From IMG/VR virus record IMGVR_UViG_3300017739_000073, positions 1 through 29,003 of that record: 29,003 nt of DNA; one strand, written 5' to 3'. Shown here in pieces: positions 1,333 through 28,951 of the stretch. The translations under genes were made by a program, and so were the position numbers. The notes beneath the pieces are model-generated. The model was not told the origin of the DNA. It saw nothing but the letters and a program-made list of their open reading frames with translations, and ran no database searches. Positions within the stretch are counted from its first letter, which is position 1; every line of letters begins with the position of its first letter. The stretch comes from a virus.

Positions 1333-2132
1333 AAAAAATCGTAGGTAGGTTGAAAAGAGGTGTTTATCCAGATCATTTTGGATTGGCAAACCAAATGTTT
1401 CAAATTTCTATGGCGTATGCGTATGCCAAGAGAAACAATTTGAAGCCAGTTTTTCCTGAACTAAGACAAACCAATGTTTGCGGTCCTTACCTTGAAACTG
1501 TTTTTAGAAATCTTGATACCTCTGGAATGATTGCCGATTTTGAAGGAAGGCATGTCAAACAAAACGAGACTGACTTTCAGTTGATGGACATCCCCGATGG
1601 TCTAGAGCAGTTTATGTTTGATGGATATTGGCAGTCTGAGCATTATTTTAAAGATTGTGCTAGTGAAATCAAAGAATTATTTTGTGCTGATCCACAAACT
1701 GAAAAAAGAATCAAAGAAAAATATGGAGAAGAGTTATCTAAACCCTGTTGCTCTATTCACATGCGGCGAGGGGACTATCTCAACTACAAGGATGTTTTTG
1801 TCAATTTAGTGGAAACTAATTACTACCAAGACGCAGTAAATGAGTCCAACGCTGAAACATTTTTTGTGATGAGTAATGACGTTGACTTTGCCACTGAGTG
1901 GTTCGCGTCGAACTTCCCAGAAAAAAATATGATTTTTCCAAACGATGATGAGGTATTTGAAATGTATCTCATGTCAATGTGCGATGAGGTTATCATGGCA
2001 AACAGTTCTTTTTCATGGTGGGGATCATATCTTGGCAAAGAGAAAAAAACATTTGCACCAAAAGAGTGGTTCATGCCAAACTCTATCGTAAACTATGAAA
2101 GCATTTATCGAGATGATTGGAGGGTTCTGTGA
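1329..2132 (+). CDS. Alpha-1,2-fucosyltransferase-like glycosyltransferase (GT11)
   Basis: The family transfers L-fucose, or in relatives L-colitose, from a GDP-sugar to a glycan. The protein is 267 aa with the GT11 signatures: an N-terminal 'LANQMFQISMAYAYAKRN' segment, the donor-binding H-x-R-R-G-D-Y (HMRRGDY, about residue 143) and the C-terminal 'ANSSFSWWGSYL'. It has no signal peptide or membrane segment, so it is probably cytosolic. It overlaps the dUTPase by 4 nt, and its stop overlaps the GTG start of the next gene. It is followed by two GDP-deoxysugar enzymes, so the three probably form one cassette acting on a phage or host glycan. The acceptor is unknown. Confidence 0.85.
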   Translation: MKKIVGRLKRGVYPDHFGLANQMFQISMAYAYAKRNNLKPVFPELRQTNVCGPYLETVFRNLDTSGMIADFEGRHVKQNETDFQLMDIPDGLEQFMFDGYWQSEHYFKDCASEIKELFCADPQTEKRIKEKYGEELSKPCCSIHMRRGDYLNYKDVFVNLVETNYYQDAVNESNAETFFVMSNDVDFATEWFASNFPEKNMIFPNDDEVFEMYLMSMCDEVIMANSSFSWWGSYLGKEKKTFAPKEWFMPNSIVNYESIYRDDWRVL

Positions 2133-3046
2133 GTATTCCAGAAGAAAGTATTTTTATCACCGGCGGTAATGGTTTGGTTGGTTCTTGTGTTAAAGGGAAG
2201 CACAGACCCAGATCATTAGAAGTTAACTTACTAAACTTTGATCAAACTCTTGAATACATGAGGGACAATAAGATTAAAAATGTTGTTCATTGTGCAGCAA
2301 GAGTTGGTGGTGTCCAAGAAAACATGGACAAGTTGGGTGAGTTTTTCTATGAAAACATGCAGATGACTCTAAACATTATCGAGGCATCTCGTCTGTGTGG
2401 TGTCGAGAAAATTGTTTGCCTTTTGTCAACTTGTATCTTCCCAGACAAGGCAACGTATCCACTGACAACAGATCAAATCCATATGGGTGAACCACATCAG
2501 TCAAACTATGGTTATGGCTACGCAAAACGTATGACAGAAATCAACGCAAGATCCTATCGAGATCAGTACGGGATGAAAATTGTAAACATTGTTCCGTGTA
2601 ATGTGTATGGAATCGGTGACAACTATAATCTTAAAAGTTCACATGTCATTCCCGGTCTGATTCACAAATGTCATATTGCAAAACAATATGAAGGGGATCT
2701 TGAAGTTTGGGGTGATGGACTCGCTCTGCGTGAGTTTATCTACAATAAAGACTTGGGTAAAATTATTGATTGGACTTTGGAAAACTACGAAGATGATGAG
2801 GCACTAATTGTTTCACCAGATAAGGAACACTCAATCGTGGAAGCAGTTAATTATATTACAAAAGCGTTTGACTTAAACGGAAGTATCGTGTACGATTCTA
2901 CTAAGCCGAGAGGTCAGCACAGAAAGCCATCAGACAACTCTAAGTTCAAAAGTCTTTTGCCAAATTTTCAGTTTACACAACTTGAGGATGGCATCAAAGA
3001 AACAGTTGACTGGTTTAGAAAAAATTATGGAGATGTCAGAAAATGA
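2129..3046 (+). CDS. GDP-L-fucose synthase / ColC-like epimerase-reductase
   Basis: This is a short-chain dehydrogenase of the GDP-4-keto-6-deoxymannose 3,5-epimerase-4-reductase family (Fcl/WcaG; the colitose enzyme ColC is a close relative). A Rossmann motif GGNGLVGS lies near residue 12 and CAARVGG near residue 55. Y129-x-x-x-K133 is the catalytic pair. C102 (in STCIFP) and H172 (in SSHVIP) match the Cys/His epimerisation pair of E. coli GDP-fucose synthase. I place the start at GTG 2129, which overlaps the previous TGA (GTGA) and follows GGAGG 2119-2123 with a 5-nt spacer; a TTG at 2117 would be 4 codons longer but would include the SD. Usual family length is about 310-320 aa; this is 305. 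Confidence 0.88.
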   Translation: MSIPEESIFITGGNGLVGSCVKGKHRPRSLEVNLLNFDQTLEYMRDNKIKNVVHCAARVGGVQENMDKLGEFFYENMQMTLNIIEASRLCGVEKIVCLLSTCIFPDKATYPLTTDQIHMGEPHQSNYGYGYAKRMTEINARSYRDQYGMKIVNIVPCNVYGIGDNYNLKSSHVIPGLIHKCHIAKQYEGDLEVWGDGLALREFIYNKDLGKIIDWTLENYEDDEALIVSPDKEHSIVEAVNYITKAFDLNGSIVYDSTKPRGQHRKPSDNSKFKSLLPNFQFTQLEDGIKETVDWFRKNYGDVRK

Positions 3047-4224
3047 AGTCTTGGAAACTAATGAACAATGCGATTACTCCTGCCCAACGACAACGTTTGT
3101 CGGACTTTGTTTTGTTGGCAGATCGCTTTTCTCAAGGTGACGAAGTTCGTAGATTCGAAGAGCAGTGGAGTGAGTGGCAAGGTTGTAAGTATTCCGTATT
3201 TTGTAATTCTGGTTCGTCCGCAAACTTTCTGATCGTACAGGCAATGAAAGAGTTACATAGCAATACGAATCATCTTTGGCTCGCACCTGCGACAACTTGG
3301 GCAACCACGGTATCTCCCATCATGATGGCAGGGCAGGAACTTCAATTGTGTGATGTGACGATTCCGAATATGAATCTGTGTCTTGATAGTTTCAAGGAGA
3401 TTTTGTTACAACACAAAAGATCTTTTGGAGCAAGACCTAAGTTTCTTTTTCTTGCACACCTTCTTGGCTTCAACTCTATGAGTGACCAACTTATTCATCT
3501 GTGTGATGAAAACAATATTACTATTCTTGAGGATTGCTGTGAATCGCATGGTGCGACTTTCAGCGGCAAAAAGATTGGCAACTTCGGACGGGCTTCATCA
3601 TTCTCCTTTTATTATGGTCATCACATGACCACGATTGAGGGTGGTATGGTTTGCACAGATGACGAAGAGGTATATGAAAAACTTCTTTTGATTCGCTCAC
3701 ATGGCTTGCTGAGAGAGTTGCCACCATACTTGCAGACAAAGTATAAAGATCAAAAGGTTGATGAAAACTTTACCTTCATGGTTCCGGGTTACAACATGAG
3801 ATCAACTGATTTTAATGCTGTGCTTGGTCAAATGCAGTTGAGACAACTGGATAAACATAACGACATTCGCAGAAAGAACTTTGAAGTGTTTGCAAAAGGT
3901 CTGAGCAAAGATAAATTTTACGCAGACTTTAAACTTGAAGGTAACAGTAGTTTCTGCTTTCCCGTAATCACAAAGACAACGCGAGAAGACACACTCTCAC
4001 TTAGAAAATATCTTGAGTCTCAGGGTGTCGAAACGCGACCAATCATCGCAGGTAATCTGTACGAACATCCATTCATGGATCGTGTGAATCAGTATCGACA
4101 TGATAAAAATGCAAAACTGATTCATCAAAATGGATTTTACATCGGCAATAATCATGCAGTTGATATTGGAAATGTAACTTGGCTTATCGAAAGACTAAAC
4201 GCATGGGAACGGGGTGAAAAGTGA
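3043..4224 (+). CDS. PLP-dependent sugar 3-dehydrase, ColD/E1-like (His in place of the PLP lysine)
   Basis: A 393-aa DegT/DnrJ/EryC1-fold protein. The lysine that normally carries PLP is replaced by histidine: the segment reads S-F-Y-Y-G-H193-H194-M-T-T-I-E-G-G. This His-His is diagnostic of the 3-dehydrases ColD (GDP-4-keto-6-deoxymannose 3-dehydrase) and E1/RfbH, which remove the C3 hydroxyl instead of transaminating. Length fits ColD, and I see no C-terminal Cys cluster like the iron-sulphur site of E1. PLP-pocket landmarks SGSSAN, EDCCESHGA and VPGYNMRSTDFNAVLG are present. It overlaps the previous gene by 4 nt and the next by 4 nt. Next to a GDP-fucose-synthase-like gene it suggests a 3,6-dideoxyhexose (colitose-type) pathway. 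Confidence 0.85.
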   Translation: MKSWKLMNNAITPAQRQRLSDFVLLADRFSQGDEVRRFEEQWSEWQGCKYSVFCNSGSSANFLIVQAMKELHSNTNHLWLAPATTWATTVSPIMMAGQELQLCDVTIPNMNLCLDSFKEILLQHKRSFGARPKFLFLAHLLGFNSMSDQLIHLCDENNITILEDCCESHGATFSGKKIGNFGRASSFSFYYGHHMTTIEGGMVCTDDEEVYEKLLLIRSHGLLRELPPYLQTKYKDQKVDENFTFMVPGYNMRSTDFNAVLGQMQLRQLDKHNDIRRKNFEVFAKGLSKDKFYADFKLEGNSSFCFPVITKTTREDTLSLRKYLESQGVETRPIIAGNLYEHPFMDRVNQYRHDKNAKLIHQNGFYIGNNHAVDIGNVTWLIERLNAWERGEK

Positions 4225-15251: not shown

Positions 15252-16022
15252 ATGTTTCCGGCAAGCGTACTGTGTCTCACTGCCCTTACCGCAGCAGGAG
15301 ATATTGAATTTAGCGGTGTAGGTCAAACTGCCGTGACCTCAATCGACGGCGTTGAGACTCTTGATACTCGTTTGGTGCTTGGTGCATACGGCGAGTCTGA
15401 GGGAGCCGTTTATGGTTTTGCTTTTGAAACCAATGACGATCTTGACGAAGTTGAATTGTATGATGCTCATGTTGGAGCAGACTTCGGCATGTTTGATGTC
15501 ACCGTTGGATACTTCAAGCGTCATTTCTCTCACGAAATGACAACCACCAAGGGAGGTTACGGTCTTGGATTGACTCGATCTTCCACAAGCGGACTTATTG
15601 AAAGCCGTGCTGGTGGGGCATCGATTGGTTTTGATGTCGGTGAAGTTTCCTTTGATTTTGACATCGTTGGCGATGATGTTTTTGATGGCGACACCGTGAC
15701 CTACGGTGGTCGTGTGGAACTTGGAGCCTTGGGCTTCGGGTTTGTCGGTGAAGAAATGGATCTGTGGACTGTGGACATCTCTGATGGATACAACTACCTT
15801 TCCTACACTGACAACAACGGCGATTGGACTGCCGTTGGTCAAAGCGTTTTGTTTACCGTTGAAGATACCTTCTCCGGTTATGGTCGTGTCGAGTACGATC
15901 ACCTTGATGAAACCACATTTGCCGTAGGTGCAGTATGTGAGTTCCAAGAAGGTGTCTCTGCTCTGGTTGAGTATGATGATCGGGACGAAGGTATTCGTGC
16001 CGGTTTGCGATTCTCGTTTTGA
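15252..16022 (+). CDS. Outer-membrane beta-barrel (porin-like) protein
   Basis: A 256-aa protein with a short hydrophobic N-terminus (MFPASVLCLTALTAAG, likely signal peptide). Alternating polar/apolar strands follow almost to the end, for example GAVYGFAFETND, MFDVTVGYFKRHF, EVSFDFDIVGDD, SGYGRVEYDHL and SALVEYDDRD. It ends in AGLRFSF with a terminal Phe, the signal recognised by the BAM machinery. Acidic loops and one internal Cys are present. I read it as a small porin-like barrel placed in the host outer membrane (inference from pattern). GGAG just upstream overlaps the previous stop. A strong terminator follows 24 nt downstream. Possible roles are receptor masking, superinfection exclusion or altered permeability. 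It could instead be a virion protein. Confidence 0.65.
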   Translation: MFPASVLCLTALTAAGDIEFSGVGQTAVTSIDGVETLDTRLVLGAYGESEGAVYGFAFETNDDLDEVELYDAHVGADFGMFDVTVGYFKRHFSHEMTTTKGGYGLGLTRSSTSGLIESRAGGASIGFDVGEVSFDFDIVGDDVFDGDTVTYGGRVELGALGFGFVGEEMDLWTVDISDGYNYLSYTDNNGDWTAVGQSVLFTVEDTFSGYGRVEYDHLDETTFAVGAVCEFQEGVSALVEYDDRDEGIRAGLRFSF

Positions 16023-16161: not shown

Positions 16162-17109
16162 ATGAGTGATATTACTATTTGGATGTGGACTGGCTTTCTT
16201 CTCGCTGCTTACAGCGTCATCGCAAATGATTCGATTCAGACGCTTGGAACTTGGATTGCGAGCAATAGAAAAATAAACTGGAAGATCATGTGGGGATATG
16301 CCTCTGCGGTTCTTCTCTTTGCAGTTTGGTATGGATGGTGGGCATACGATGGTGACATCTCATACGGAAGACTCAACAAGATTCCGTTTGAGGGAGTAGA
16401 GTGGTATCAAGCACTCGCACCAGCAGTCCTATTGCTGCTCACTCGTTTTGGTATTCCTGTATCAACTTCATTCCTTGTGCTTTCTGCATTCGCATCAACT
16501 CTTGTTTTACAAAAAGTTTTGATGAAGTCTATGCTAGGATATGCCGTGGCTGGCGTTGCTGCCTATCTGATCTGGTTTGCCCTGACCCGTGTGATTGACG
16601 AGGGTAAGTCGATCAAGGACTCACACAAGAAGTGGTGGTCGATTGGACAGTGGATTACGACAGGCTTCCTGTGGTGGACTTGGTTGAGTCACGACATGGC
16701 AAACATCGCCGTGTTTATGCCGAGACAGATTCCCGTGGAGGTCATGGTGATCATCTCCACCGTCTTCGTCGCTGGTCTTGCGTGGATGCTACAAAAGCGT
16801 GGTGGCAAGATTCAGGAAATCGTCATACAAAAAAGAAATACAAAGTATGTTCGGTCGGCAACTCTGATTGACCTGTTCTACTTTATCGTTCTTTACATCT
16901 TCAAAGAAATGAACGACATTCCGATGTCAACGACTTGGGTGTTTGTCGGACTTCTCACTGGACGAGAACTTGCGGTTGCATCGTTCAGACAAAAGGACAG
17001 TGTGAAAAAAGTGTTCCCGATGGTCAGTCGAGACTTCCTGAAACTGATGGTTGGTCTTGCGGCATCTGTGGTGATTGTGCTTCTGGTTCAATACGCTAAG
17101 AGTTGCTAG
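16162..17109 (+). CDS. Putative Pho4/PiT-like phosphate (anion) transporter
   Basis: A 315-aa integral membrane protein with about eight hydrophobic segments. Two inverted-repeat-like signatures of the PiT family can be traced: N-terminal V-I-A-N-D-S-I-Q-T-L-G-T with IPVSTSFLVLSAFAS, and C-terminal S-H-D-M-A-N-I-A-V with IPMSTTWVFVGLLTG. In PiT proteins the N-D and P-x-S-T motifs line the phosphate and cation site. It is shorter than typical bacterial PiT (about 400-500 aa). AGGGAG precedes the ATG. It is a single-gene unit between a terminator and the next gene, so it is likely regulated apart from replication genes. Phosphate uptake would be a plausible auxiliary role in marine hosts. Another ion as substrate is possible. 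Confidence 0.55.
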   Translation: MSDITIWMWTGFLLAAYSVIANDSIQTLGTWIASNRKINWKIMWGYASAVLLFAVWYGWWAYDGDISYGRLNKIPFEGVEWYQALAPAVLLLLTRFGIPVSTSFLVLSAFASTLVLQKVLMKSMLGYAVAGVAAYLIWFALTRVIDEGKSIKDSHKKWWSIGQWITTGFLWWTWLSHDMANIAVFMPRQIPVEVMVIISTVFVAGLAWMLQKRGGKIQEIVIQKRNTKYVRSATLIDLFYFIVLYIFKEMNDIPMSTTWVFVGLLTGRELAVASFRQKDSVKKVFPMVSRDFLKLMVGLAASVVIVLLVQYAKSC

Positions 17110-18874: not shown

Positions 18875-19656
18875 TAGTCGCTCCTGTTGTGTTTCAAGCG
18901 TGAGTCATTATATCTGCGACGAAGAATCGCTCTTTCACCAGTCTCAGCGTCTTGAACAACAACAGGGCTTGTCGTGTTTCTCAGAGAATAGTTTTTAATG
19001 GCAATGATATGATCACTGTCACCATCTTCTTCGATATAATCACTCCATCTTGAGTATCTTTCTCTTCCCTCTTTCATTCTTCTAAACATAGAAGAAGGGA
19101 TTTTAAAAACTTTACCTTTATACTTCTTGAGTTCTTTTCTATTCTTTCCAAAAAGAAGTTTATCAAAACCGGCAACGGTATCAAAACTCCCGTCTGTATC
19201 TGTAAACTGTCCACCAGTCGGAGTGGGTGCTACGCTTGTCTCTTCATAAACGACCATGTAACCACTTTCGACGTAAGTTGGCAATTCCTCACGCTTGATA
19301 ATGATCGCCTCTTTTTTCATTTGATTGTAAACAACAGATTCATCTGGCTTTTTGACATCTTTAAGTCTAAGAACCTGATCTCTAATCGCTGGCTCTATGG
19401 AACCCTCAAATCCTATTTGGTCAGAATCAATGCTAGATGCGGCATATGTTCTTGGCATGGGATACAAAGCGGGAGGACCGTATCCATAAAATGGAAATTC
19501 CTCAAAAATACCGCCTTGTTTTGTGTAGTTGTCGTGAGCCTCACATAGATCTTTTGATTCATTCAAAGACTTTGTAAAAGAATCTTGGTCAATCGGCTGT
19601 TGCCTTGACTCCTCCATCACAATTAGTCTTTGTTTCAAAAGTTCGTATGAGATCAT
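18874..19656 (-). CDS. Hypothetical protein, 260 aa
   Basis: ATG 19656 follows GGAG and overlaps the preceding gene end by 4 nt. The sequence starts ISYELLKQRLIVMEESRQQ and continues with a Pro/Tyr-rich part (EEFPFYGYGPPALYPMPRTYA), a middle with AIIIKREELPTYVESGYMVVYEE, and a basic end (RAILRRRYNDSRLKHNRSD). There is no membrane segment. The N-terminal helix resembles the capsid-targeting-like starts of neighbouring genes but lacks a clean [LI]-x-E at the right place (V-M-E instead). Its location before the lysis genes and among virion-type genes suggests a structural or internal protein, which is not proven. Confidence 0.6.
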   Translation of the reverse strand: MISYELLKQRLIVMEESRQQPIDQDSFTKSLNESKDLCEAHDNYTKQGGIFEEFPFYGYGPPALYPMPRTYAASSIDSDQIGFEGSIEPAIRDQVLRLKDVKKPDESVVYNQMKKEAIIIKREELPTYVESGYMVVYEETSVAPTPTGGQFTDTDGSFDTVAGFDKLLFGKNRKELKKYKGKVFKIPSSMFRRMKEGRERYSRWSDYIEEDGDSDHIIAIKNYSLRNTTSPVVVQDAETGERAILRRRYNDSRLKHNRSD

Positions 19657-20036
19657 TTTAGGCTCCGTAAAATACTTACAATTTTTGTGTCAAGTGGGAC
19701 ACTAATAATATTTATTCCATCGAACTTTTCTTCTGGGCAAAAATTAAGATAAGTCAAAAATGTCTTAAGTATTGGATACTGTTTCTTTTCAATCCTGTTG
19801 AAAAACATTCTTGTACCAGCGGGTATGCCAAACACATTGTAAAAAGTTATGATGTGATTTAAAATCAAACGTTCACGAAGAACGCCAGTTGTCTCATAAC
19901 GATTAAACAGTCTTTTGACGTATTTTATTCTATTAAAATCCTCTTGAAATTCCTCAATGTTTTTACAAGAGGGATTATTATAGTTTTTCATTGCAAAGTT
20001 GACGATATTATCGTCGTTTAGTTCACGAAATAACAT
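19653..20036 (-). CDS. Conserved T4-like phage protein (DUF7207-like), 127 aa
   Basis: The pattern ELNDDNIVNFAMKNYNNPSC, EEFQEDFNRIKYVKRLFNRY, GVLRERLILNHIITFYNVFG, LKTFLTYLNFCPEE and a final DTKIVSILRSL matches a small helical family that I recall from T4-like cyanophages and related marine phages, where the function is unknown. The protein is all-helical in appearance with no membrane segment. It starts one base after the stop of the 173-aa gene and overlaps the 260-aa gene by 4 nt, so it belongs to the same operon. Confidence 0.7.
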   Translation of the reverse strand: MLFRELNDDNIVNFAMKNYNNPSCKNIEEFQEDFNRIKYVKRLFNRYETTGVLRERLILNHIITFYNVFGIPAGTRMFFNRIEKKQYPILKTFLTYLNFCPEEKFDGINIISVPLDTKIVSILRSLK

Positions 20037-20037
20037 A

Positions 20038-20559
20038 TCATGCGAAGTTTACATTAATTTTGTATCCAGTGCCGCTGCTCTCAAACGTAAACACAACGTC
20101 AGTTTTTGGAAGTGATGCTTCGAACGGAACACCCTCTACCTCGGGCAAAGCCTGATCAGGCTCTTGATCAATTGCATCTGATACATTTTTATTATCGCCA
20201 AGTGGCTGATCACCAAAAGTGACTTCGGTGGTATACTCGGTTCCGTTCATGGCAGCGTTTCTCATCGCGGCAGGATCAATGTGAAAAGAAAGTCCGGTGG
20301 CGTTGAATTTTGCTCTCGCTCTGGTAACAGCATCGACAACATCTTCATACACTCCTCCGAGAGCGGATTGAAGTCCTTTAGACATAAGACCCATGTTTGA
20401 AGATGTTGGATATGGTTTATTTGCACCGCCCTTTTGAACAGAGCCAAGATCTGTTCCGGCGATATCCCCAACATTAGTCCTATCACCACCTGCATAGGCA
20501 GTTGGTCCGTCGTAATATTCTTCGGTAAGTTTAGAGCGAATGTCCTTAAAAGATTTCAT
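20038..20559 (-). CDS. Hypothetical protein with capsid-targeting-like N-terminus, 173 aa
   Basis: The start M-K-S-F-K-D-I-R-S-K-L-T-E-E resembles the shared N-terminus of the cargo-type genes at 23.6-27.8 kb, with an L-T-E13 cleavage-type site three residues later than the usual position 10. The rest is low-complexity and acidic (GPTAYAGGDRTNVGDIAG; DQEPDQALPEVEGVPF) and ends in alternating residues (VVFTFESSGTGYKINVNFA) that suggest a beta strand. There is no catalytic motif or transmembrane segment. It lies directly downstream of the 104-aa gene. Possible internal or structural virion protein (inference). Confidence 0.6.
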   Translation of the reverse strand: MKSFKDIRSKLTEEYYDGPTAYAGGDRTNVGDIAGTDLGSVQKGGANKPYPTSSNMGLMSKGLQSALGGVYEDVVDAVTRARAKFNATGLSFHIDPAAMRNAAMNGTEYTTEVTFGDQPLGDNKNVSDAIDQEPDQALPEVEGVPFEASLPKTDVVFTFESSGTGYKINVNFA

Positions 20560-20874
20560 TTACTTCCCCAATCTATTCATCACTGCCTTTTCAAAAGCAG
20601 CGACATTTTGACTTGTTACATCCCCTTCGACACCCATTTTGTCAAAGTGAGTTTTTACAATTTTATTCTTATCCTCAATAGTTCTAGCATTTGTCAGGAT
20701 ATCTTCAGCCGTCGCGTCAACGATATCTTGAGTAACTTCTTTTGGCATAGCATTGTGATTTCCACGGTTCATTACTTGATTTACCGCATCAATCGCATTT
20801 TTAAGACCATCTGATTCACCACCACTAAAAGGACCGGCAGAGTCAAATCCACTACTAACATTATCTGATTCCAT
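20560..20874 (-). CDS. Hypothetical protein, 104 aa
   Basis: ATG 20874 follows GGAG with a 7-nt spacer and overlaps the stop of the fusion gene by one base. The N-terminus is Ser/Gly/Asp rich and probably disordered. A helical part follows (LKNAIDAVNQVMNRG, VTQDIVDATAEDILTNARTIEDKNKIVKTHFDKMG, AAFEKAVMNRLGK). No membrane segment, Cys or known motif is present. It is transcribed with the fusion gene and the 173-aa gene; role unknown. Confidence 0.6.
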   Translation of the reverse strand: MESDNVSSGFDSAGPFSGGESDGLKNAIDAVNQVMNRGNHNAMPKEVTQDIVDATAEDILTNARTIEDKNKIVKTHFDKMGVEGDVTSQNVAAFEKAVMNRLGK

Positions 20875-23135
20875 TATGAATCTCCTTTAAAGTATGTATC
20901 TGCAATTTCATTTACCTGTCCGGGTGTCATTCTTTTTCTTTTTCTTGTAAGAGCAGTCGTTCCCTCCAGATCATCATCTGAATATTCCTCTTCTCTTGCC
21001 TTTTTCTTAGCCATGTTTGTCGCAGTGCCGAAAATGACATCCTCATAATCATCTCCATATCGATTTTTAAAACCTTTTGCTCGTTTCTTCAAATCTTTAG
21101 CAAATTTGTCTCTAAGTTTTATTTCTTGTTTTGTCAAAACCTCTTCTTTAAGTTTTGTGGTCTTAATAAACTTCTTGCCCGGATCAACAACAATATGGAA
21201 TTCTTTCATGAAAGGGACACCAATCAAAACAGGAGTTCCCTTTTTGCTTCTATCATCTAAGGTGAATCTTCGTTTAACATACTTTTTATCAAGAAATTCT
21301 ATATCCAATTCAATCACATAGCGTTTTTCTTCATGTGCGCCGATGCCGCCCTCAAGAATAGTAAACTCATCGACAATTTTGTTCTTGAATTTTTTACCTT
21401 TGTGTGTCCATGAGATAGTTTTTCCATTTATTTTCATGGTATCCGCATGAATTGAGTTGACCGCCGTGTTACCAGTATCAAACTTTGCCTCGATGGGACC
21501 GATGCCCTCTACTGATATGACTTCTTTCCTACCAACAATTGTTGGGGGGTAATCCCAGTTATTTTTGTCGGTAATATATTTAACAAAAGTTTGCATCACG
21601 TTTCCAGATGAAACCTTTTCAATGCCCTCTGATCCCGGTGATGCGTTTACTTCAATAACATAAGGCTTTCTTCTACCTTTAGTAACAGCGATATCTACAC
21701 CGACAAAGTATCCACCCACCGCCTTTGCAGTTCTGAGGGCAAGTTTTTTGATCTCATCACTAATCTTTACTTGTTTGATAGATCCACCGAGAGAAAAGTT
21801 TGTTCTAAAATCGCCTTTGACTTTACTTCTCTCCATGACAGCGACAATTTGACCATCAAGAACAACGATGCGAAGATCCCCGTTAATATTAAGATACTCT
21901 TGGATAATCAACTCTTGTGAGTCATCAACTTTAAGAATAGCATCGAGTGTTGATTTTAGTGATTGTTCACTCTCAAGAATAAACACTCCCTTTCCCTTAG
22001 AGCCTGTGATTGTTTTTACAACCACTGGATAATTACCACCAACTTGCTTATGGGCATCCATTACATTTTCAGGGTCGGTAATCAACGCCGTTCTTGGTGT
22101 AGGAAGACCAGCCTCAACAAGTGTGAGTGCGGAGCGATACTTATCGTTGCAAATTTCGATTGAGTCCCTAGAGTTAATCACAAAGAATCCACTCTTTTCG
22201 AACGCCGAAACCATATCGAGAGTCGCGTTATTTTCTTGAGCAGCACCACGAACAATTACAACAGTGTCATGCCGATTTGCCACAAATTCTTTACCATCTT
22301 TATTGATAACTGTACGAGTCCCATCTGCATTTTTCACAGATCGGGCAAAGGGGACGAACGCGACGAAACACTCGACTCCGATTTTTTGTGCCTCTTCTTT
22401 GATTCGCTTCGCAGTTCTCATTAAGTTGTCTTTATTTTCTTCGCTATATCCAGAAAAAACTAGTAACTTAATTTTATCTCTAGAGACTTCTGCCTCCTCG
22501 GTGATAGTCCCACCGACAACGCCCATTCCTTTACGAACATCGTCAAAAAGTTTACGAGCCTGTCTATCTGATCCCGTGGTTGGGACACCTTGACGAAACG
22601 ACTTGAAGTCACCCTCGGCTGCTGCTGCTCTCATCTTTGATGCCGACATGCCAACAATACCCTCTGCATCAGGATCGCGTCTACCGGCACTAACGACCTC
22701 AAATGTGTTTAGATCTAAAGATTTATCTGGATCAGGATGATTGATATATGGTCTAACGGTTCTTTCAAACTCATCGGTTCTATCGCCGCCAACAACGACA
22801 GTAACATCCGTATATCCTTCATCAGCAAGATATCCCAAAGCCTCAAAAATCGTGCGAATCGAGGTGTTATACATAATATTAGCCTTCTTGAAAAAGGTTC
22901 GCATGTGCTTTGTTTTTGTTCTTGAATCTAGAGGATTCTTTTTCTTATCTTGGGAGTGGCTGGCAAAGATAAAATTGTCAGCGGATCTTTTTCTTGCTTC
23001 CTGTAAAACTTTGTTTACCAGTAGTTCATGACCAGATGTGGGTGGGTTGAAACGTCCAAACGTAAGAACCGCTTTCTTATTTCGACGCTCTTCCACGATG
23101 ACATTACGCCTCACTCCATTGTAGTGTGGTTTCAT
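20874..23135 (-). CDS. Three-domain fusion: nucleotidyltransferase + RimK-like ATP-grasp ligase + RimB-like aspartic protease
   Basis: Residues 21-200 form a cytidylyltransferase-type (HIGH-superfamily) domain: TFGRFNPPTSGH (25-36), VVVGGDRTDEF and GMSASKMR (162-169). Residues about 222-530 form an ATP-grasp ligase like RimK: VIVRGAAQENN, CNDKY, VVVKTITGSKGKGV with K374, QEYLNINGDLRIVV and VIEVNASPGSEG (493-503). Residues about 535-660 resemble the retropepsin-like 'ATP-dependent zinc protease'/RimB family (PF05618): EAKFDTGNTAVNS with D553-T-G, and VLIGVPFM (636-643). The C-terminus (665-753) is charged. RimK adds glutamates to ribosomal protein S6, and RimB modulates this in Pseudomonas. 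The N-terminus (I-V-E15) resembles a capsid-targeting sequence. Its SD is exceptionally complete, and a 25-nt inverted repeat flanks its start. Confidence 0.85.
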   Translation of the reverse strand: MKPHYNGVRRNVIVEERRNKKAVLTFGRFNPPTSGHELLVNKVLQEARKRSADNFIFASHSQDKKKNPLDSRTKTKHMRTFFKKANIMYNTSIRTIFEALGYLADEGYTDVTVVVGGDRTDEFERTVRPYINHPDPDKSLDLNTFEVVSAGRRDPDAEGIVGMSASKMRAAAAEGDFKSFRQGVPTTGSDRQARKLFDDVRKGMGVVGGTITEEAEVSRDKIKLLVFSGYSEENKDNLMRTAKRIKEEAQKIGVECFVAFVPFARSVKNADGTRTVINKDGKEFVANRHDTVVIVRGAAQENNATLDMVSAFEKSGFFVINSRDSIEICNDKYRSALTLVEAGLPTPRTALITDPENVMDAHKQVGGNYPVVVKTITGSKGKGVFILESEQSLKSTLDAILKVDDSQELIIQEYLNINGDLRIVVLDGQIVAVMERSKVKGDFRTNFSLGGSIKQVKISDEIKKLALRTAKAVGGYFVGVDIAVTKGRRKPYVIEVNASPGSEGIEKVSSGNVMQTFVKYITDKNNWDYPPTIVGRKEVISVEGIGPIEAKFDTGNTAVNSIHADTMKINGKTISWTHKGKKFKNKIVDEFTILEGGIGAHEEKRYVIELDIEFLDKKYVKRRFTLDDRSKKGTPVLIGVPFMKEFHIVVDPGKKFIKTTKLKEEVLTKQEIKLRDKFAKDLKKRAKGFKNRYGDDYEDVIFGTATNMAKKKAREEEYSDDDLEGTTALTRKRKRMTPGQVNEIADTYFKGDS
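23021..23045. repeat. Inverted repeat, arm 1 (inside the fusion gene)
   Basis: The 25 bases are the exact reverse complement of 23176-23200. This arm codes for residues about 31-38 of the fusion protein (around PTSGHELL). The 130-nt interval between the arms holds the start codon and SD. Confidence 0.95.
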
Positions 23136-23140
23136 AAGTC

Positions 23141-23151
23141 GATCACCTCCT
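23141..23151 (-). promoter_or_regulatory. Near-maximal Shine-Dalgarno for the fusion gene
   Basis: Read on the minus strand, AGGAGGTGATC matches the bacterial 16S rRNA 3' end (GATCACCTCCT) over 11 bases, 5 nt before the ATG at 23135. It is far stronger than other SDs in the window and sits in the loop of the 25-bp inverted repeat. Confidence 0.8.
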
Positions 23152-23175
23152 CGGTCTGGTTATTGTGTATGGTCA

Positions 23176-23200
23176 CCACCCACATCTGGTCATGAACTAC
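23176..23200. repeat. Inverted repeat, arm 2 (intergenic)
   Basis: It lies between the stop of the 40-residue gene (23204) and the fusion gene start (23135). It is the perfect reverse complement of 23021-23045. In the minus-strand mRNA the two arms would form a 25-bp stem enclosing SD, start codon and the first 30 or so codons. Confidence 0.95.
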
Positions 23201-23203
23201 AGT

Positions 23204-23326
23204 TTACTTATTCCACGGGAGATAAGTTCTGAGCCATTCAAACATGGGTTTGCCGATTAAAGCACCTAGTGTAAAACTAATAAGTGTGTGAGCGATAAAT
23301 CCGTAAGTGGTTGTTACAAAATCCAT
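23204..23326 (-). CDS. 40-residue membrane peptide
   Basis: This gene is short but well supported: ATG 23326 has AAGGAG with a 6-nt spacer, a CTAAATA box lies 36 nt upstream, and TAA is at 23206-23204. The product has one hydrophobic segment (VTTTYGFIAHTLISFTLGALIG) followed by KPMFEWLRTYLPWNK, a basic/aromatic end. It looks like a single-helix inner-membrane peptide. It is the first gene of the second minus-strand operon, upstream of the fusion gene and, much further on, the lysis cassette. It could be holin- or antiholin-like; no family recognised. Confidence 0.65.
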   Translation of the reverse strand: MDFVTTTYGFIAHTLISFTLGALIGKPMFEWLRTYLPWNK

Positions 23327-23361
23327 TTGATTCTCCTTGTGCTTTGGTCGGCGTGACCTCT

Positions 23362-23598
23362 TTATTTAGTAGATGTTTTCTTCTTAGATGTGACTTTTTT
23401 ACGAGCCTTTTTTACTGGTTGTGGTTTCGGTGCTGGCTTAGTTTCCTCAACGAACCAACAAAGCCCTTTCCAGACAAGTTTAAATGCATTTCCTACTCTC
23501 ACGATAAATCTCCCTAAAAATCCGCAGATAAGAAGAAGAGCATCTCTCAAATCATCTTGAAACTTTTCTTCAAACCTTCTACCATCACCTTTTTTCAT
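23362..23598 (-). CDS. Small amphipathic, Lys-rich protein, 78 aa
   Basis: ATG 23598 overlaps the stop of the previous gene (ATGA) and has AAGGA upstream; a TTG at 23607 would add three codons. The N-terminal half has a hydrophobic/amphipathic helix (ALLLICGFLGRFIVRVGNAF, KLVWKGLCWFVEE). A Pro-Lys linker (KPAPKPQPVKK) leads to a very basic end (ARKKVTSKKKTSTK). The basic tail could bind DNA or membrane phosphates. It closes the cargo operon, and its stop codon lies in the CTAAATA box of the next operon. Confidence 0.6.
   Translation of the reverse strand: MKKGDGRRFEEKFQDDLRDALLLICGFLGRFIVRVGNAFKLVWKGLCWFVEETKPAPKPQPVKKARKKVTSKKKTSTK
23363..23369 (-). promoter_or_regulatory. CTAAATA late-promoter-like box (minus strand)
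   Basis: Read 23369 to 23363 it is CTAAATA, overlapping the stop of the Lys-rich gene and leaving a 36-nt leader before the ATG at 23326. It probably drives the operon from the 40-residue gene through the lysis cassette. Confidence 0.6.
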
Positions 23599-24791
23599 TT
23601 TGTCCAATCCTTTGCTACGTTAAAGTTTGCTCGGGAAAACTCCATACGATCTACGAGTTTTACGGCTTTTCCCGACCTATCAATTGCAACAAACCCTTCG
23701 GGGTCGGTCACTTTATATCCTGTGCTTGTTTTGATAAACGACGGCATGGTATTCAAAGCCTGTAATTTTTTTAATATAAGCATTTTAGCCCTTGCCAATT
23801 CATAGTGAGCAGTAAACAGTCCGTTTAGATCACGACTCATACCCCTCAACTCTTTTAACAAAATTTCCTTTTCTTCTTCGACACGCTCTTTCGCTTTTTC
23901 TGTTTTGAGTTTTTTAATCTTCAAATCAAATCGTGTCATAATAAATCCAGCAAAACTTTTAGTTGTCCCCCTATCAACACCTTCACGAACATTCGCATTG
24001 AGGTAAATTTTTATCAAATCTTTCAAGTCACTACTTACAATTTGTCTCAAAGTTTTTTTAGACTTTGCGATATTCTTTTCAGTAATATCAATTAATTTTT
24101 TCATCCTTGCTTCTTCGGTTGATGTAAGAGTCGCCCTACCAGAAACATCTTTGTAAGACGCATCTTGATACCAAACTTTTCTAGACGCTTTCAAACCAGA
24201 AACATCTGCACCGAAAGATGCTTTAAGATTTTCTATTGTGTCACCGTTGTAAGTGGTGTGAAAAACGATCCCCATTTTTGAAGTGTTTATTTTACTCGCC
24301 AGATCACTTCCAGCAGGAACAGCGTATGTAATCGTGTTCGGAGTAAATGACACCATCGACTCACCATCAATGGTCTGTGCGGATAGATCGTCTTTCGTGT
24401 AAAGCATATCTCCCTGCAAAACACCAGTAATGCCCAAATCCTTTAGGTTTGCAAGTGCGACTTTTAACTTATCTGCCAACCCTCCACTGTGGTTGGCATC
24501 AATATCAGCATTTGTGTAATTGATCTTCGGTATTTTGTTAAACAAAGATTTTGTCGCCACGAAAAACTTTCCATTCTCTGGATTGATTCCTGTGAACAAG
24601 GCTGGTGCGCCGTCCCACTTTACTGTAACGTTCACTGGGCTTTTTGCATTTCCTTTGAGCATTTCCGCCAAAGATTTGATAAATGCAATAGCCTCTTTGA
24701 CACCCACCTCGCCACGATTGAACATCTCATCTTCAAGATGCTCAAGGTGCAAGTTTTTTTGCTCTGTGAGGAAGGTGGTAAAAGTTCTCAT
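23595..24791 (-). CDS. KxDG nucleotidyltransferase-like protein (DUF6267-like) with capsid-targeting-like N-terminus
   Basis: A 398-aa protein of a family common in T4-like marine phages. V-K58-W-D60-G61-A-P-A has the K-x-D-G form of the AMP-accepting motif I of DNA/RNA ligases. It is followed by KFFVATKSLFNK (75-86), VLQGDML (124-130, motif III-like), ITYAVPAGSD and MGIVFHTTYNG (173-183, motif IV-like). A ligase or capping-type nucleotidyl transfer is therefore possible; activity in this family is not established to my knowledge. The second half is helical with charged stretches (KIKKLKTEKAKERVEEEKE). The N-terminus M-R-T-F-T-T-F-L-T-E10 fits the shared capsid-targeting-like peptide. It overlaps both neighbours by 4 nt. 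Confidence 0.75.
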   Translation of the reverse strand: MRTFTTFLTEQKNLHLEHLEDEMFNRGEVGVKEAIAFIKSLAEMLKGNAKSPVNVTVKWDGAPALFTGINPENGKFFVATKSLFNKIPKINYTNADIDANHSGGLADKLKVALANLKDLGITGVLQGDMLYTKDDLSAQTIDGESMVSFTPNTITYAVPAGSDLASKINTSKMGIVFHTTYNGDTIENLKASFGADVSGLKASRKVWYQDASYKDVSGRATLTSTEEARMKKLIDITEKNIAKSKKTLRQIVSSDLKDLIKIYLNANVREGVDRGTTKSFAGFIMTRFDLKIKKLKTEKAKERVEEEKEILLKELRGMSRDLNGLFTAHYELARAKMLILKKLQALNTMPSFIKTSTGYKVTDPEGFVAIDRSGKAVKLVDRMEFSRANFNVAKDWTK

Positions 24792-25897
24792 ACAGATGCC
24801 GCCAAGTCGTCAAGGTATTTTCCATTTTCGACATAGAATCTAACTCGTGGTCTATACGCAGTTTTTTGTCTATTGATCGGGTCCGAATCATAACGGAATC
24901 GCAAAGAAAAAAGTTCAGTTCCGTTAGCAAAGAACCCAATCTTTGGATTTGATCCACCCATCGGTCGCCACTCAACGTTACCATTTTTTGCCGCGTCAAC
25001 AACCAATTCTGAAATTTTGTCAAAAGTCTTTTTATCAAATGAAACCGCCGTGCGAATCAGTTCGATATCATCCTCTGTGCCTTTATTAGCCTTCAACAAT
25101 CCACCAAGAATTTTCTTTGCGTTTGCTGCGTTAGCGACATATCTTTTGTCAAACTTTCGAATCACATCAGTAAACAAACTTTGCACGGCTCCGAACATGA
25201 GAGTTTTGTCGCCAGCGATCTTGGGGTCATTTCTTGATTCATAAGGTGCGGAAAGACCACCGGATGCATCACGAACTTTTCGCAACCCAGAAAAACTTTT
25301 GATGTCCATACCAAAAGATGCAAAAGCATCAATCAAGTTTTTGCTTGCGTCAACACCAGCAAACTGTCCGGCTTGTTTTGTTCCGGCATACTTCACAGAG
25401 AAACCTACTTTTCGCTGCACTCTGTCGTTGACGAAAACATCAACATCTGATTTCGTAGCCATCTGACCTGTGGTTCCCCCACAACGAATCTCAACTTCAT
25501 CACGTTTTCCGTTTGTAATCACATCATTGGAAAGTGCGGTTAGTGATCGGTTTTTATTTACGGCTGCGATTGCATCTTTAATCATTTTTTGAACAATCGG
25601 ACCAGAGCGAAGTCTTGCATCATTCAAGGCAGACATGACTTCGGGCGGAAGACCCCCACCATCAAACTCCACAACATCGATCTCATCGTCACCCTCCTCA
25701 ACTTCCCACATGCGATTAAGTGCAAAATATTGTTTCATTACATCCTCAACAGATGCAGGTGTGAGAGATTGTGGCGAACCATCGTTGAAGCGATCAGTAA
25801 ACCGAGCAACCATCGCGGCTGCAAGGACAAACTCATATGCGTGTCCTTGATTTACTGGGAATGCCTCTTCTATGATAAATCGTTTAAAGGTTTTCAT
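24788..25897 (-). CDS. Putative PD-(D/E)XK-type nuclease with capsid-targeting-like N-terminus
   Basis: The 369 aa start M-K-T-F-K-R-F-I-I-E10. A conserved-looking helix follows (NQGHAYEFVLAAAMVARF, E22), then a basic/acidic strand set D-E-V-E-I-R-C-G-G, K-S-D151-V-D153-V-F-V and K-V-G-F-S-V-K169-Y. The spacing and the D...S-x-K form resemble the cores of phage and restriction PD-(D/E)XK nucleases, where S-[LV]-K may replace E-x-K. The C-terminal half has a strand-rich end (IGFFANGTELFSLRFRYDSD). The nuclease call is inference from motif shape. If packaged, it could act on host DNA early or on packaged DNA ends. It overlaps neighbours by 4 nt on each side. Confidence 0.5.
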   Translation of the reverse strand: MKTFKRFIIEEAFPVNQGHAYEFVLAAAMVARFTDRFNDGSPQSLTPASVEDVMKQYFALNRMWEVEEGDDEIDVVEFDGGGLPPEVMSALNDARLRSGPIVQKMIKDAIAAVNKNRSLTALSNDVITNGKRDEVEIRCGGTTGQMATKSDVDVFVNDRVQRKVGFSVKYAGTKQAGQFAGVDASKNLIDAFASFGMDIKSFSGLRKVRDASGGLSAPYESRNDPKIAGDKTLMFGAVQSLFTDVIRKFDKRYVANAANAKKILGGLLKANKGTEDDIELIRTAVSFDKKTFDKISELVVDAAKNGNVEWRPMGGSNPKIGFFANGTELFSLRFRYDSDPINRQKTAYRPRVRFYVENGKYLDDLAASV

Positions 25898-26124
25898 GCT
25901 GCGACCGTATCTACTACTTCGTAGTCCTTTCGTTCAAGTTTTCTGATTTCACTTCTGTTTTCTGCAAATTTGAAGTCACCTTCTTTTGTGTGTTGCATTA
26001 TTGTAATCATTTTACCAAGTTTCCGTGCGAGTTCCATTGCTTTTTTTGAAGCGTCTTTGAATTGACCCATGATTTCCTGTAACTCCTGATCATTTTCTAC
26101 GATATATTGTTTGAAAGTTTTCAT
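25894..26124 (-). CDS. Small helical protein with capsid-targeting-like N-terminus, 76 aa
   Basis: The start M-K-T-F-K-Q-Y-I-V-E10-N is almost the same as that of the downstream 369-aa protein, yet the rest is unrelated. After the proposed cut the protein is a charged helix (DQELQEIMGQFKDASKKAMELARKLGKM) with a mixed tail ending in VVDTVAA. It is about the size of small T4 internal proteins. It overlaps both flanking genes by 4 nt. Function unknown; a packaged internal protein is the simplest reading. Confidence 0.65.
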   Translation of the reverse strand: MKTFKQYIVENDQELQEIMGQFKDASKKAMELARKLGKMITIMQHTKEGDFKFAENRSEIRKLERKDYEVVDTVAA

Positions 26125-26357
26125 TTCTTACCTAACTTTCCTTTTTTCTTTTCACCAGATGATCTTTTGATCATGCCCCTCGCGGAAAGACGAGCGGCAA
26201 GTGTGGCTCCAACAACTTTCATCGCCTTTCCATAGTCAACATCATCTAAAGATCCATACTTGTCAATAAGTTTTTTCTTTGCCTTATCGAGATGGTCTTT
26301 CATTTCTTTGCCTTTGAATTTGAGGTCAGATTCAACCAGTCTTTTATCAAGTTTCAT
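26121..26357 (-). CDS. Small basic protein with capsid-targeting-like N-terminus, 78 aa
   Basis: ATG 26357 follows GGAGGG with a 6-nt spacer and shares a base with the previous TGA; a TTG one codon earlier is less likely. The start M-K-L-D-K-R-L-V-E9-S-D is a diverged form of the shared peptide. The remainder is helical and basic (KGKEMKDHLDKAKKKLIDKYG; LAARLSARGMIKRSSGEKKKGKLGKK), suitable for binding DNA inside a head. No catalytic motif is seen. Confidence 0.6.
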   Translation of the reverse strand: MKLDKRLVESDLKFKGKEMKDHLDKAKKKLIDKYGSLDDVDYGKAMKVVGATLAARLSARGMIKRSSGEKKKGKLGKK

Positions 26358-27058
26358 CAATATCCCTCCATTCCATACACAGGCGCAGGCAAGTCTTTGT
26401 ATCGAAGTTGTTTTACTTCTTCCTCTTTTGGTGGCTCTTGTGTGATATATCTATCAATCAATTGCTTAGAAAAGTCTCTGCCAGCCTCAACATCCTCTGG
26501 AAAGTGAACACCAAGACTGATACGAGACTGTGCGTTGTCCTCTGCAACTTTATCGAGTGCTTCCTTTTTATCGGGGTGGCGACGAGAGAGAACATCTGCG
26601 ATGACATAACCGACTGCTGCATGATTGCTTGGGTAACTGGGGGTGTCAACACGAACATGTGGGATTAGAACTTTACCATAAAATTTTGCAGTTTCGCGTG
26701 GTCTTAGTCTATTGAAGTGATATTTTTTTCTTAAGGTCAAGGTGTCAATTTGTCTTTTAAGTTCACCAATAAGTGCAACATCAAAATCACCTCGACCCAC
26801 AATATCTTTCATCATATCCATGAAATCTTCGTCGAGTTTAACTTCATATTTGAGTCTCTCTGGTGACATGATCATCGAGTCCATGACCTCTTGAAGTTCC
26901 ATCTGAGTTTCTTTAGATGAAAGTTTTGCAGGAGTTGGTAGAGACAGACCCTCAACGTCTTTGAAATATGGCGTTGGTCGTTTCATATGAATGCGGTGTT
27001 TTTGTGTTGCACTTTCATGCAATACTTTTGCATTTTTAAAATCTTTAAACTTCATCAT
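26357..27058 (-). CDS. PAP2-superfamily acid phosphatase with capsid-targeting-like N-terminus
   Basis: All three PAP2/haloperoxidase phosphatase motifs are present in 233 aa: K112-x6-R119-P120 (KYHFNRLRP), P143-S-N-H146 (SYPSNHA) and S178-R179-x5-H185-x3-D189 (SRISLGVHFPEDVEAG). The two His and the Arg residues needed for phosphoryl transfer are intact, so phosphatase activity is likely; the substrate is unknown. Unlike lipid phosphatases of this group it has no obvious membrane helices. The first residues (M-M-K-F-K-D-F...V-L-H-E15) are a longer form of the shared N-terminal peptide. AAGGAG precedes the double ATG at 27058; its end overlaps the next gene. Confidence 0.85.
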   Translation of the reverse strand: MMKFKDFKNAKVLHESATQKHRIHMKRPTPYFKDVEGLSLPTPAKLSSKETQMELQEVMDSMIMSPERLKYEVKLDEDFMDMMKDIVGRGDFDVALIGELKRQIDTLTLRKKYHFNRLRPRETAKFYGKVLIPHVRVDTPSYPSNHAAVGYVIADVLSRRHPDKKEALDKVAEDNAQSRISLGVHFPEDVEAGRDFSKQLIDRYITQEPPKEEEVKQLRYKDLPAPVYGMEGY

Positions 27059-27774
27059 TTCAAAAACTCCTTTAACAATTGTACCTGAACATCAGCCCTT
27101 TCCGCAAGCGGAAACCCACCTCCCGCTGGCGTTTCTGTGGTCATCGATGGTTTAACACCGATAGTTGCAAGGTAATCTCCTAACATACCCTGTCGATCTC
27201 TTTCGATTTTACCATTGATAGCGTGATTGGGTGGAAATGGACTGTGTAAAAGTGAATATTTGTCTCCGATGATGTTCACCATACGGTCGCCCAGACCCCC
27301 TACGTCGCTCCAGACGAACATATACCCCTTGTCCCTGTTCGGATCTTCGTGGAGGTCTACAAAGCCATCACGGGCGAGTGGAAGCCATCTGTCAAGGATA
27401 TCAAGAAGCCTCTTCATTTCTCGGGAAGGATTGTTTGGAATATTGTTATTTGGGTTTATATCCATGTCATCATTGTGTTTTCCAGATCGGTAAGATTCTT
27501 TGGAAACGATGGGAAGATATGTTACATTTACTTCTGTCGGTTTATTTTCTTTAACATATTTCAACAAACCAACAGGTCCGGCTGGTTCATCGCCTTGAAG
27601 ATTTGAAGCAACAAGTTTATTAGGTTTGTCACCAAACTTTAAAGGGATAAAGAAAGTGTGTCCATTTTCATCAAATCTTTTATGTGTTGAAGAAACAGCA
27701 TCTTCGAACTCTCGAAAATACTGTTCGACAGAATCATCAGATTCTTCAACTAGAAATTTACGAAAAGACTTCAT
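27055..27774 (-). CDS. M14-like zinc carboxypeptidase-type protein with capsid-targeting-like N-terminus
   Basis: The 239 aa start M-K-S-F-R-K-F-L-V-E10. A fold typical of M14 peptidases and succinylglutamate desuccinylase-like enzymes can be traced. N-L-Q60-G-D-E63-P-A-G stands where H-x-x-E is usual. R97 and DINPNN (105-110) match the R...D-x-N-R region, VDLH142 the third zinc ligand, and T-T-E214-T-P the catalytic Glu. The first zinc His is Gln (codon CAA), so the protein may bind metal differently or be inactive. It is the first gene after a CTAAATA box and overlaps the PAP2 gene by 4 nt. A peptidase delivered with DNA could act on the envelope or on cytoplasmic peptides (inference). Confidence 0.6.
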   Translation of the reverse strand: MKSFRKFLVEESDDSVEQYFREFEDAVSSTHKRFDENGHTFFIPLKFGDKPNKLVASNLQGDEPAGPVGLLKYVKENKPTEVNVTYLPIVSKESYRSGKHNDDMDINPNNNIPNNPSREMKRLLDILDRWLPLARDGFVDLHEDPNRDKGYMFVWSDVGGLGDRMVNIIGDKYSLLHSPFPPNHAINGKIERDRQGMLGDYLATIGVKPSMTTETPAGGGFPLAERADVQVQLLKEFLK

Positions 27775-27779
27775 GCCTT

Positions 27780-27786
27780 TATTTAG
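27780..27786 (-). promoter_or_regulatory. CTAAATA late-promoter-like box (minus strand)
   Basis: Read 27786 to 27780 it is CTAAATA, overlapping the stop codon of the PEP-CTERM-like gene. It lies only 5 nt before the ATG at 27774, so a transcript from it would be almost leaderless; this copy is less certain than the other three. Confidence 0.4.
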
Positions 27787-28424
27787 GCTCTACGTCTTCT
27801 CCCGCCCATCAGCACACCCATGCCCCCGATTGCCAACGCACCCGGAGCAGGGATAATAATAGAATCAAAGTCTGGCACAAAGGATTCAAAAACTGCCACG
27901 CCACCATCCCCTTGAAGAACTGCTGGGGAGGTAGTGTAATCCTCTGCCCATGCCACGATCCAAACGGTTGCCGACTCGCCGGGGGCTAAAGAATCTGTGG
28001 TCGTATCGTCTGAGAAGCCCCAGTCCCATGAGAACAGACCTGTCTCGTATGCAAAATCCACATAGTCCGGGGCGTTGTAAAAAGGATCAAAAATTCTATC
28101 TTTGTCTGGATTGTCAAAAAAGTATCCGGGCATCACAAGAGCGGCGATCTCGGATGTGCTTTCTCCAACATAAATGTCGAGGTCTTCGATTGCTAGCATT
28201 GACTCCGCATCGTTCTCAACGCTGATTGTCACTAGCATTGCACCCTCGGGAAGACCTACAATATCTTGTTGCTCGGGTTCGGTATAGACTGCTGAAGAAA
28301 CTGTTGCCGCATAGAATCCCTCTTCGCTCTGTGACCAAACTTCATATGACATATAATCCGTTGGGTCACCAATGATATCCCCAAACGCAGCCGTTGTTAT
28401 AAGAAACGCTAATGGTTTATGCAT
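27783..28424 (-). CDS. Secreted protein with PEP-CTERM-like sorting tail
   Basis: I place the start at ATG 28424, after AGGGG with a 7-nt spacer; upstream in-frame codons run through a terminator. The 213 aa have a signal peptide (MHKPLAFLITTAAFG), an acidic, aromatic-rich secreted domain (DIYVGESTSEIAAL, GLFSWDWGFSDD, ATVWIVAWAED) and a C-terminal tripartite tail: I-P-A-P-G, a hydrophobic span (ALAIGGMGVLMGG) and R-R-R-R-A. This is the PEP-CTERM layout read by exosortase in Gram-negative bacteria; P-A-P-G variants are common in planctomycetes. The gene looks host-derived and would act at the host envelope. It has its own promoter region and lies between a terminator and the cargo operon. Confidence 0.75.
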   Translation of the reverse strand: MHKPLAFLITTAAFGDIIGDPTDYMSYEVWSQSEEGFYAATVSSAVYTEPEQQDIVGLPEGAMLVTISVENDAESMLAIEDLDIYVGESTSEIAALVMPGYFFDNPDKDRIFDPFYNAPDYVDFAYETGLFSWDWGFSDDTTTDSLAPGESATVWIVAWAEDYTTSPAVLQGDGGVAVFESFVPDFDSIIIPAPGALAIGGMGVLMGGRRRRA

Positions 28425-28483: not shown

Positions 28484-28520
28484 TAAAAAAGACAACGGGA
28501 GCCTTTCGACCCCCGCTGCC
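28484..28520 (-). terminator. Rho-independent terminator after hsp20
   Basis: On the minus strand GGCAGCGGGGG pairs with CTCCCGTTGTC (11 pairs including G-T) around an 8-nt loop, followed by TTTTTT (28490-28485). It ends the Hsp20 transcript 24 nt after the stop. Confidence 0.85.
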
Positions 28521-28543: not shown

Positions 28544-28951
28544 TTAAGAAATCTCAATAACTTTTGGTTTCTTTTCGTCTGGAATAATTTTATGTAGATT
28601 CACATAGAGGATTCCGTCTTCGCAGTATGCTCCTGTGACGTTCCAATCTTCGGTGAGAGGGAGTCGAGAGCGGAAACTGCGACCAGCGATTCCTCGATGC
28701 TCGTAAGTGGCTTCCTCTTCGGTAGGTTCACGATCAGAACTAACTTCCAAAACCTTATAGTTTTGAGGATGGGGATGAACAACAATTTCAATATCATCTT
28801 TCTTATACCCCGCTACTGCAAACTCTACGGTTGCGTTTTCTTCGTCATGACGAATAATGTTGTAAGGTGGGAAACTTGTTCCTGCGTCAATATTTCGTTC
28901 AATTTCGTTAATGTGATCCCAAAACTTTTCGATACCTAGACTCGTAATCAT
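28544..28951 (-). CDS. hsp20: Small heat-shock protein (Hsp20/alpha-crystallin)
   Basis: ATP-independent chaperone that holds unfolded proteins, 135 aa. The alpha-crystallin domain is evident: YNIIRHDEENATVEFAVAGYKKDDIEI, YEHRGIAGRSFRSRLPLTEDWNVTGAYCEDGILYVNL, then a short C-terminal extension PKVIEI containing the I-x-I motif that mediates oligomers. Hsp20 genes are common in T4-like marine phages. AAGGAG precedes ATG 28951 in a sequence (ACATAAGGAGAAA) that also stands before the gene at 15053. It is a single-gene unit on the visible side, with a terminator after it. The 52 bases beyond its start, to the window edge, hold no clear promoter. Confidence 0.93.
   Translation of the reverse strand: MITSLGIEKFWDHINEIERNIDAGTSFPPYNIIRHDEENATVEFAVAGYKKDDIEIVVHPHPQNYKVLEVSSDREPTEEEATYEHRGIAGRSFRSRLPLTEDWNVTGAYCEDGILYVNLHKIIPDEKKPKVIEIS

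Follow-up and report, generated by a model that had tools for sequence, protein, structure and literature searches.

A T4-like marine phage, probably one that infects Phycisphaerales, appears to encode a secreted protein with a PEP-CTERM-type tail of the kind used by its host, by which the protein would be sorted to the cell surface; we consider this reading, drawn from sequence comparisons, likely to be correct. The gene lies near one end of the window, which is the whole stretch of DNA analysed, a complete IMG/VR virus record of 29,003 bases that is possibly a fragment of a phage genome. The window encodes a DNA polymerase (phrog_262) that is 51% identical to those of Synechococcus T4-like phages, as well as UvsX, and these T4-type replication genes bear out the initial annotation of the record as a T4-like phage. 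The features of the gene and its upstream region are as follows.

27783..28424, minus strand: PEP-CTERM-type secreted protein gene (213 aa; ATG at 28424, stop codon 27783-27785)
28380..28424, minus strand: predicted Sec signal peptide, residues 1-15 (MHKPLAFLITTAAFG), with a conserved A-x-A/G cleavage site
27861..28379, minus strand: mature body, residues 16-188, acidic (∼20% D+E)
27840..27851, minus strand: PAPG motif, residues 192-195, a PAP variant of the PEP-type recognition motif
27801..27842, minus strand: hydrophobic span of 14 residues (GALAIGGMGVLMGG)
27789..27800, minus strand: basic C-terminal cluster RRRR (the protein ends RRRRA)
28491..28520, minus strand: intrinsic terminator between the HSP20 gene and the PEP-CTERM-type gene; relatives have this element ahead of their dockerin gene
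28544..28951, minus strand: HSP20-family small heat-shock protein (phrog_432), which adjoins the cassette in relatives

The start codon is preceded by an RBS-like AGGGGA, and the 213-aa product begins with MHKPLAFLITTAAFGDI and ends with IIIPAPGALAIGGMGVLMGGRRRRA. The signal peptide was called by inspection and by its conservation among homologues, with cleavage predicted between MHKPLAFLITTAAFG and D; in relatives the cleavage site is ALA, AMA or AFA followed by D, and a mature start of D(I/L) is kept. Lysine and arginine make up only 1.2% of the body, compared with 12.8% in the long ORFs of the window, and cysteine is absent; PEP-CTERM proteins are likewise poor in basic residues and low in cysteine (Haft et al. 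2006, PMC1569441). With the substrates of the PEP-CTERM/exosortase (EpsH) system (TIGR02595, PF07589; PMC1569441) the protein thus shares a signal peptide, a P-x-P motif, a hydrophobic span, a basic C-terminus, a low basic content, the lack of cysteine, no further evident membrane span and a body without known homologues, the body having no match in Pfam, PHROG or, by profile search, the PDB. It differs from them in being phage-encoded, in having PAP in place of the near-invariant PEP, in scoring below the curated cut-offs and in relying on an exosortase from the host. The complete exosortase-substrate layout that the initial annotation had claimed (signal peptide, PAPG, hydrophobic span and RRRR) is present, and it is kept in all complete homologues.

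The tail scored 9.7 bits with PF07589 (curated cut-off 20.7) and 12.9 bits with an NCBIfam model (cut-off 15.85), although most Phycisphaerales tails also fall under the PF07589 cut-off. The best NCBIfam match (E 0.13) was to MYXO-CTERM / GC_trans_RRR (TIGR03382, TIGR03901), with which the protein shares a glycine-rich span followed by RRR; however, it falls below that cut-off too, and its P-A-P ahead of the span is as in PEP-CTERM. Pro-Glu-Pro itself is absent, being replaced by Pro-Ala-Pro in the window protein and by Pro-Thr-Pro in one homologue (L049), and the collected Phycisphaerales tails mostly have Pro-Ala-Pro as well. The window protein also lacks the conserved cysteine of MYXO-CTERM. 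Because the curated PEP-CTERM and MYXO-CTERM models all scored the tail below cut-off, we ran a shuffle test of chance. A profile built from 32 protein tails of marine Phycisphaerales (Planctomycetota), with no phage sequences, scored the window protein at 25.6 bits (E 1e-6 in 4,702 viral ORFs), and its top score among shuffled proteins (n=47,020) was 9.7 bits. Across the same 4,702 ORFs this profile picked up all complete family members and almost nothing besides.

Homologues of the protein, with phage genes as neighbours, were found on 11 other IMG/VR contigs at 72-84% identity, together with divergent homologues at 40-46% identity. Close and divergent homologues have the signal peptide, P-x-P, hydrophobic span and basic end in common, and P-A/T-P is retained in every complete homologue while the remaining sequence drifts. 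With dN/dS at 0.126 for the body and 0.173 for the tail, the sequence is under purifying selection, and the gene is therefore a real, selected one. The initial annotation had also suggested that the phage recruited the protein from its host. For the tail this holds up, since it matches the tails of Phycisphaerales proteins, but not for the body, which has no homologue in genome_contigs and whose relatives have so far come only from viral contigs. When the body alone was compared with host PEP-CTERM proteins, the best match was a single, collinear and marginal one (E 0.0056 among 84 preselected proteins), and we do not claim body homology to host proteins. INPHARED contained nothing related to the PEP-CTERM-type, dockerin or barrel proteins.

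The host is most probably a member of the marine Phycisphaerales (Planctomycetota), as judged from tails, dockerin modules and exosortases. When genome_contigs was scanned with dockerin-tailed phage proteins encoded beside the homologues, seven of the nine confirmed loci belonged to planctomycetes, and six of these seven carried the label Phycisphaerae, Phycisphaeraceae, Phycisphaerales or Phycisphaera. Six of the seven planctomycete MAGs found through the dockerin tail contained an exosortase, and each had several PEP-CTERM-type proteins; tails read in the planctomycete genomes were VPAPGALALLGLAGLGRRRRG and close variants, which is nearly the phage tail. Across the class Phycisphaerae, 291 of 298 genomes encoded an exosortase. 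The profile of the phage family matched proteins in 61 of 151 Phycisphaerales genomes and in none of 60 Flavobacteriales genomes, with the Phycisphaerales matches almost all C-terminal (profile positions about 110-206 of 207, mostly 160-206). A dockerin profile matched in 61 of 201 Phycisphaerales genomes, typically through to the C-terminus (WG.C), as opposed to weaker matches, mostly short of the C-terminus, in 10 of 60 Flavobacteriales genomes. A Flavobacteriales host was rejected, given these weak and short dockerin matches, the lack of a tail match and only weak exosortase-like matches. The GC content of the phage (0.41, against 0.53-0.69 in the planctomycete loci) counts against the assignment to planctomycetes, and no CRISPR-spacer or prophage link to a Phycisphaerales genome emerged. 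With Flavobacteriales as the comparison group sampled in this way, the assignment is well supported and stops short of proof. The planctomycete clue of the initial annotation is nonetheless strongly supported, and its concern that the true host might lack an exosortase does not apply to the host proposed here, in whose class the enzyme is nearly universal.

A tail-only scan found PEP-CTERM-type tails on unrelated bodies in L202 and L203 (136-137 aa), L207 and L208, the tail in L207 exceeding the TIGR02595 cut-off. Within 5 kb, the L208 record has at least three PEP-CTERM-type proteins and a type I dockerin protein, the latter exceeding the Pfam Dockerin_1 (PF00404) cut-off; the records of L202 (123 kb) and L208 (120 kb) both have genes for T4 gp23 and terminase. 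This reuse on dissimilar bodies is the best evidence that the tail, and not the body, is what the phages would need for addressing. One alternative is that the tail is a plain C-terminal anchor, so that the exported protein remains anchored in the inner membrane, on its periplasmic side, without exosortase processing, for example as a lysis or envelope-modifying protein. A signal peptide, a C-terminal hydrophobic span and a basic end would suffice for this without a sortase, and in L071, L099 and L100 the dockerin gene is followed by one for a coiled-coil membrane protein whose tail is loosely similar. However, the span of the window protein is short, glycine-rich and a poor anchor, and in length and pattern it agrees with host exosortase tails (14 residues with a KD of 1.52, compared with 13.2 ± 1.4 residues and 1.83 ± 0.48 in the host). 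The constancy of P-A/T-P among complete homologues and the same motif on unrelated bodies also speak against a plain anchor, which we regard as rather unlikely.

In relatives, the PEP-CTERM-type gene has between one and three genes directly upstream whose secreted products end in a dockerin-like module (consensus D.NEDG.VGF.DLLQVL...LSEWG.C). The ends of these neighbours (D.N.DG.V...DLL...WG.C) resemble those of Phycisphaerales proteins, although the models for GC-type dockerin domain-anchored proteins (NF041540) and type I dockerins (PF00404) fail to recognise them. Dockerin-tailed proteins occur on at least 95 viral contigs; 80 dockerin loci were kept, 20 of which also hold a member of the PEP-CTERM family, in every case (20 of 20) directly downstream of the dockerin gene. 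The 29,003-base window has no dockerin gene, but it retains the HSP20 terminator and the following TACTA that are seen before the dockerin gene in relatives, so loss of this gene in the window lineage is likely. A separate family of phage proteins, often encoded straight after a dockerin gene (L071, L079, L083, L099, L100, L103 and L208:2732-3424), combines an N-terminus that is either Cys-rich or coiled-coil with a single membrane span and a tail of the P..G, hydrophobic, R/K-rich kind, which in L079 reads VPAPG..RRRRR.

The regulatory region of its own that the initial annotation had ascribed to the gene is only partly evident in the window. The terminator at 28491-28520 parts the gene from HSP20, and in three relatives the T4 late-promoter octamer TATAAATA occurs in exact form 44 nt ahead of the start (expected 0.004 per site), but the window has no exact TATAAATA. 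In L072, a record for which gp23 and terminase were confirmed, the dockerin/PEP-CTERM pair comes after putative portal, protease, scaffold and capsid genes. Given this context and the octamer in three relatives, late expression of the PEP-CTERM-type gene is likely.

The same gene order could point to a virion-associated protein that decorates the particle, with the tail serving assembly. The initial annotation had treated homologues found only in phages, together with virion localisation, as grounds against a surface role; homologues of the body do come only from viral contigs, and in L072 the gene follows capsid genes, but the predicted signal peptide argues against a virion role. T4 head and tail parts assemble in the cytoplasm, and neither a signal peptide nor a host-type sorting tail would be expected of them. 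Moreover, the gene is placed elsewhere in some relatives, for example before HSP20, dut and DNA polymerase genes, and we consider a virion role improbable. That the gene is a host fragment, owing to a binning or assembly error or to recent capture of a host gene of no use to the phage, would fit the host-type tail but is already contradicted by conservation and synteny (the same gene with phage neighbours in 11 further contigs, a dN/dS of 0.13 and a body absent from genome_contigs) and is hardly credible.

Passage from signal peptide to membrane retention, exosortase and surface is the established route for PEP-CTERM proteins. On the favoured reading of a phage protein sorted by its host, the signal peptide would direct the protein through Sec, and the hydrophobic span and RRRR would retain it in the inner membrane. 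The host exosortase would then recognise PAP and release or transfer the protein outward, so that the acidic body would end up on the surface or in the matrix of the infected cell. No exosortase was found among the viral ORFs collected, and sorting would therefore depend on the host. In relatives, the PEP-CTERM-type and dockerin-tailed secreted proteins may be made together as a surface cassette, probably late. As to purpose, we favour, less firmly, that an altered or masked surface would exclude superinfecting phages or stop progeny from sticking. The gene itself, its layout and conservation, the tail match and the exosortase in the proposed host class are shown directly; we infer host identity, cleavage, surface location, timing and purpose alike. 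The lipoprotein Llp of phage T5 is placed in the host envelope for superinfection exclusion. As a comparison of working principle only, both are phage-encoded exported proteins destined for the host envelope; Llp uses lipoprotein sorting, whereas the phage protein here would use an exosortase tail.

More broadly, there may well be, with about even chances, a large group of marine Phycisphaerales phages, T4-like and others, whose surface cassettes are addressed by PEP-CTERM and dockerin tails. Unrelated bodies would have gained such tails on several occasions, and the phages would use the cassettes to gain control of the host surface, for instance to exclude rival phages. In the open-licence PMC literature we found no report of a phage-encoded exosortase substrate or of T4-like phages assigned to Phycisphaerales, and the papers there that pair PEP-CTERM with phage, as far as their accessible text goes, concern bacterial genes. 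If such a group exists, the sorting tail would be a host label readable from sequence, with which no fewer than 95 orphan viral contigs could be placed in a little-studied class of marine planctomycetes, and it would be a case of a virus exploiting the surface-sorting machinery of its host. The roles of exosortase substrates are mostly obscure, and a phage that keeps one under selection would offer a handle on what they may be.

Other genes in the window and in L014 were also noted. At least six neighbouring proteins encoded on the minus strand at 19656-27774 have MK(S/T)FK.F(L/I).E-like N-termini: 27055-27774 (deacetylase-like), 26357-27058 (PAP2), 25894-26124, 24788-25897, 23595-24791 and 20038-20559. 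These N-termini resemble the capsid-targeting sequences of T4, which have an (L/I)xE protease site (PMC9026906), and this makes the proteins, some of them enzyme-like, candidates for being packaged and injected. Two proteins in L014 (13366-15456) have the N-termini MKSFKRFLKEE/D and weak EF-hand or dockerin-like repeats (NGDG, ..LLQILSDWG). The plus strand of the window encodes a secreted beta-barrel-like protein (15252-16022) whose end, RAGLRFSF, is an outer-membrane-type C-terminus; INPHARED contained nothing related to it, and with 0 matches among 121 Phycisphaerales genomes it was dropped as a host marker. Also on this strand are a multi-span membrane protein (16162-17109) whose match to phosphate transporters stays below threshold (PHO4, E 0.003) and, at 1329-4224, a row of surface-sugar genes comprising a glycosyltransferase of family 11, an epimerase-like gene and a DegT aminotransferase.
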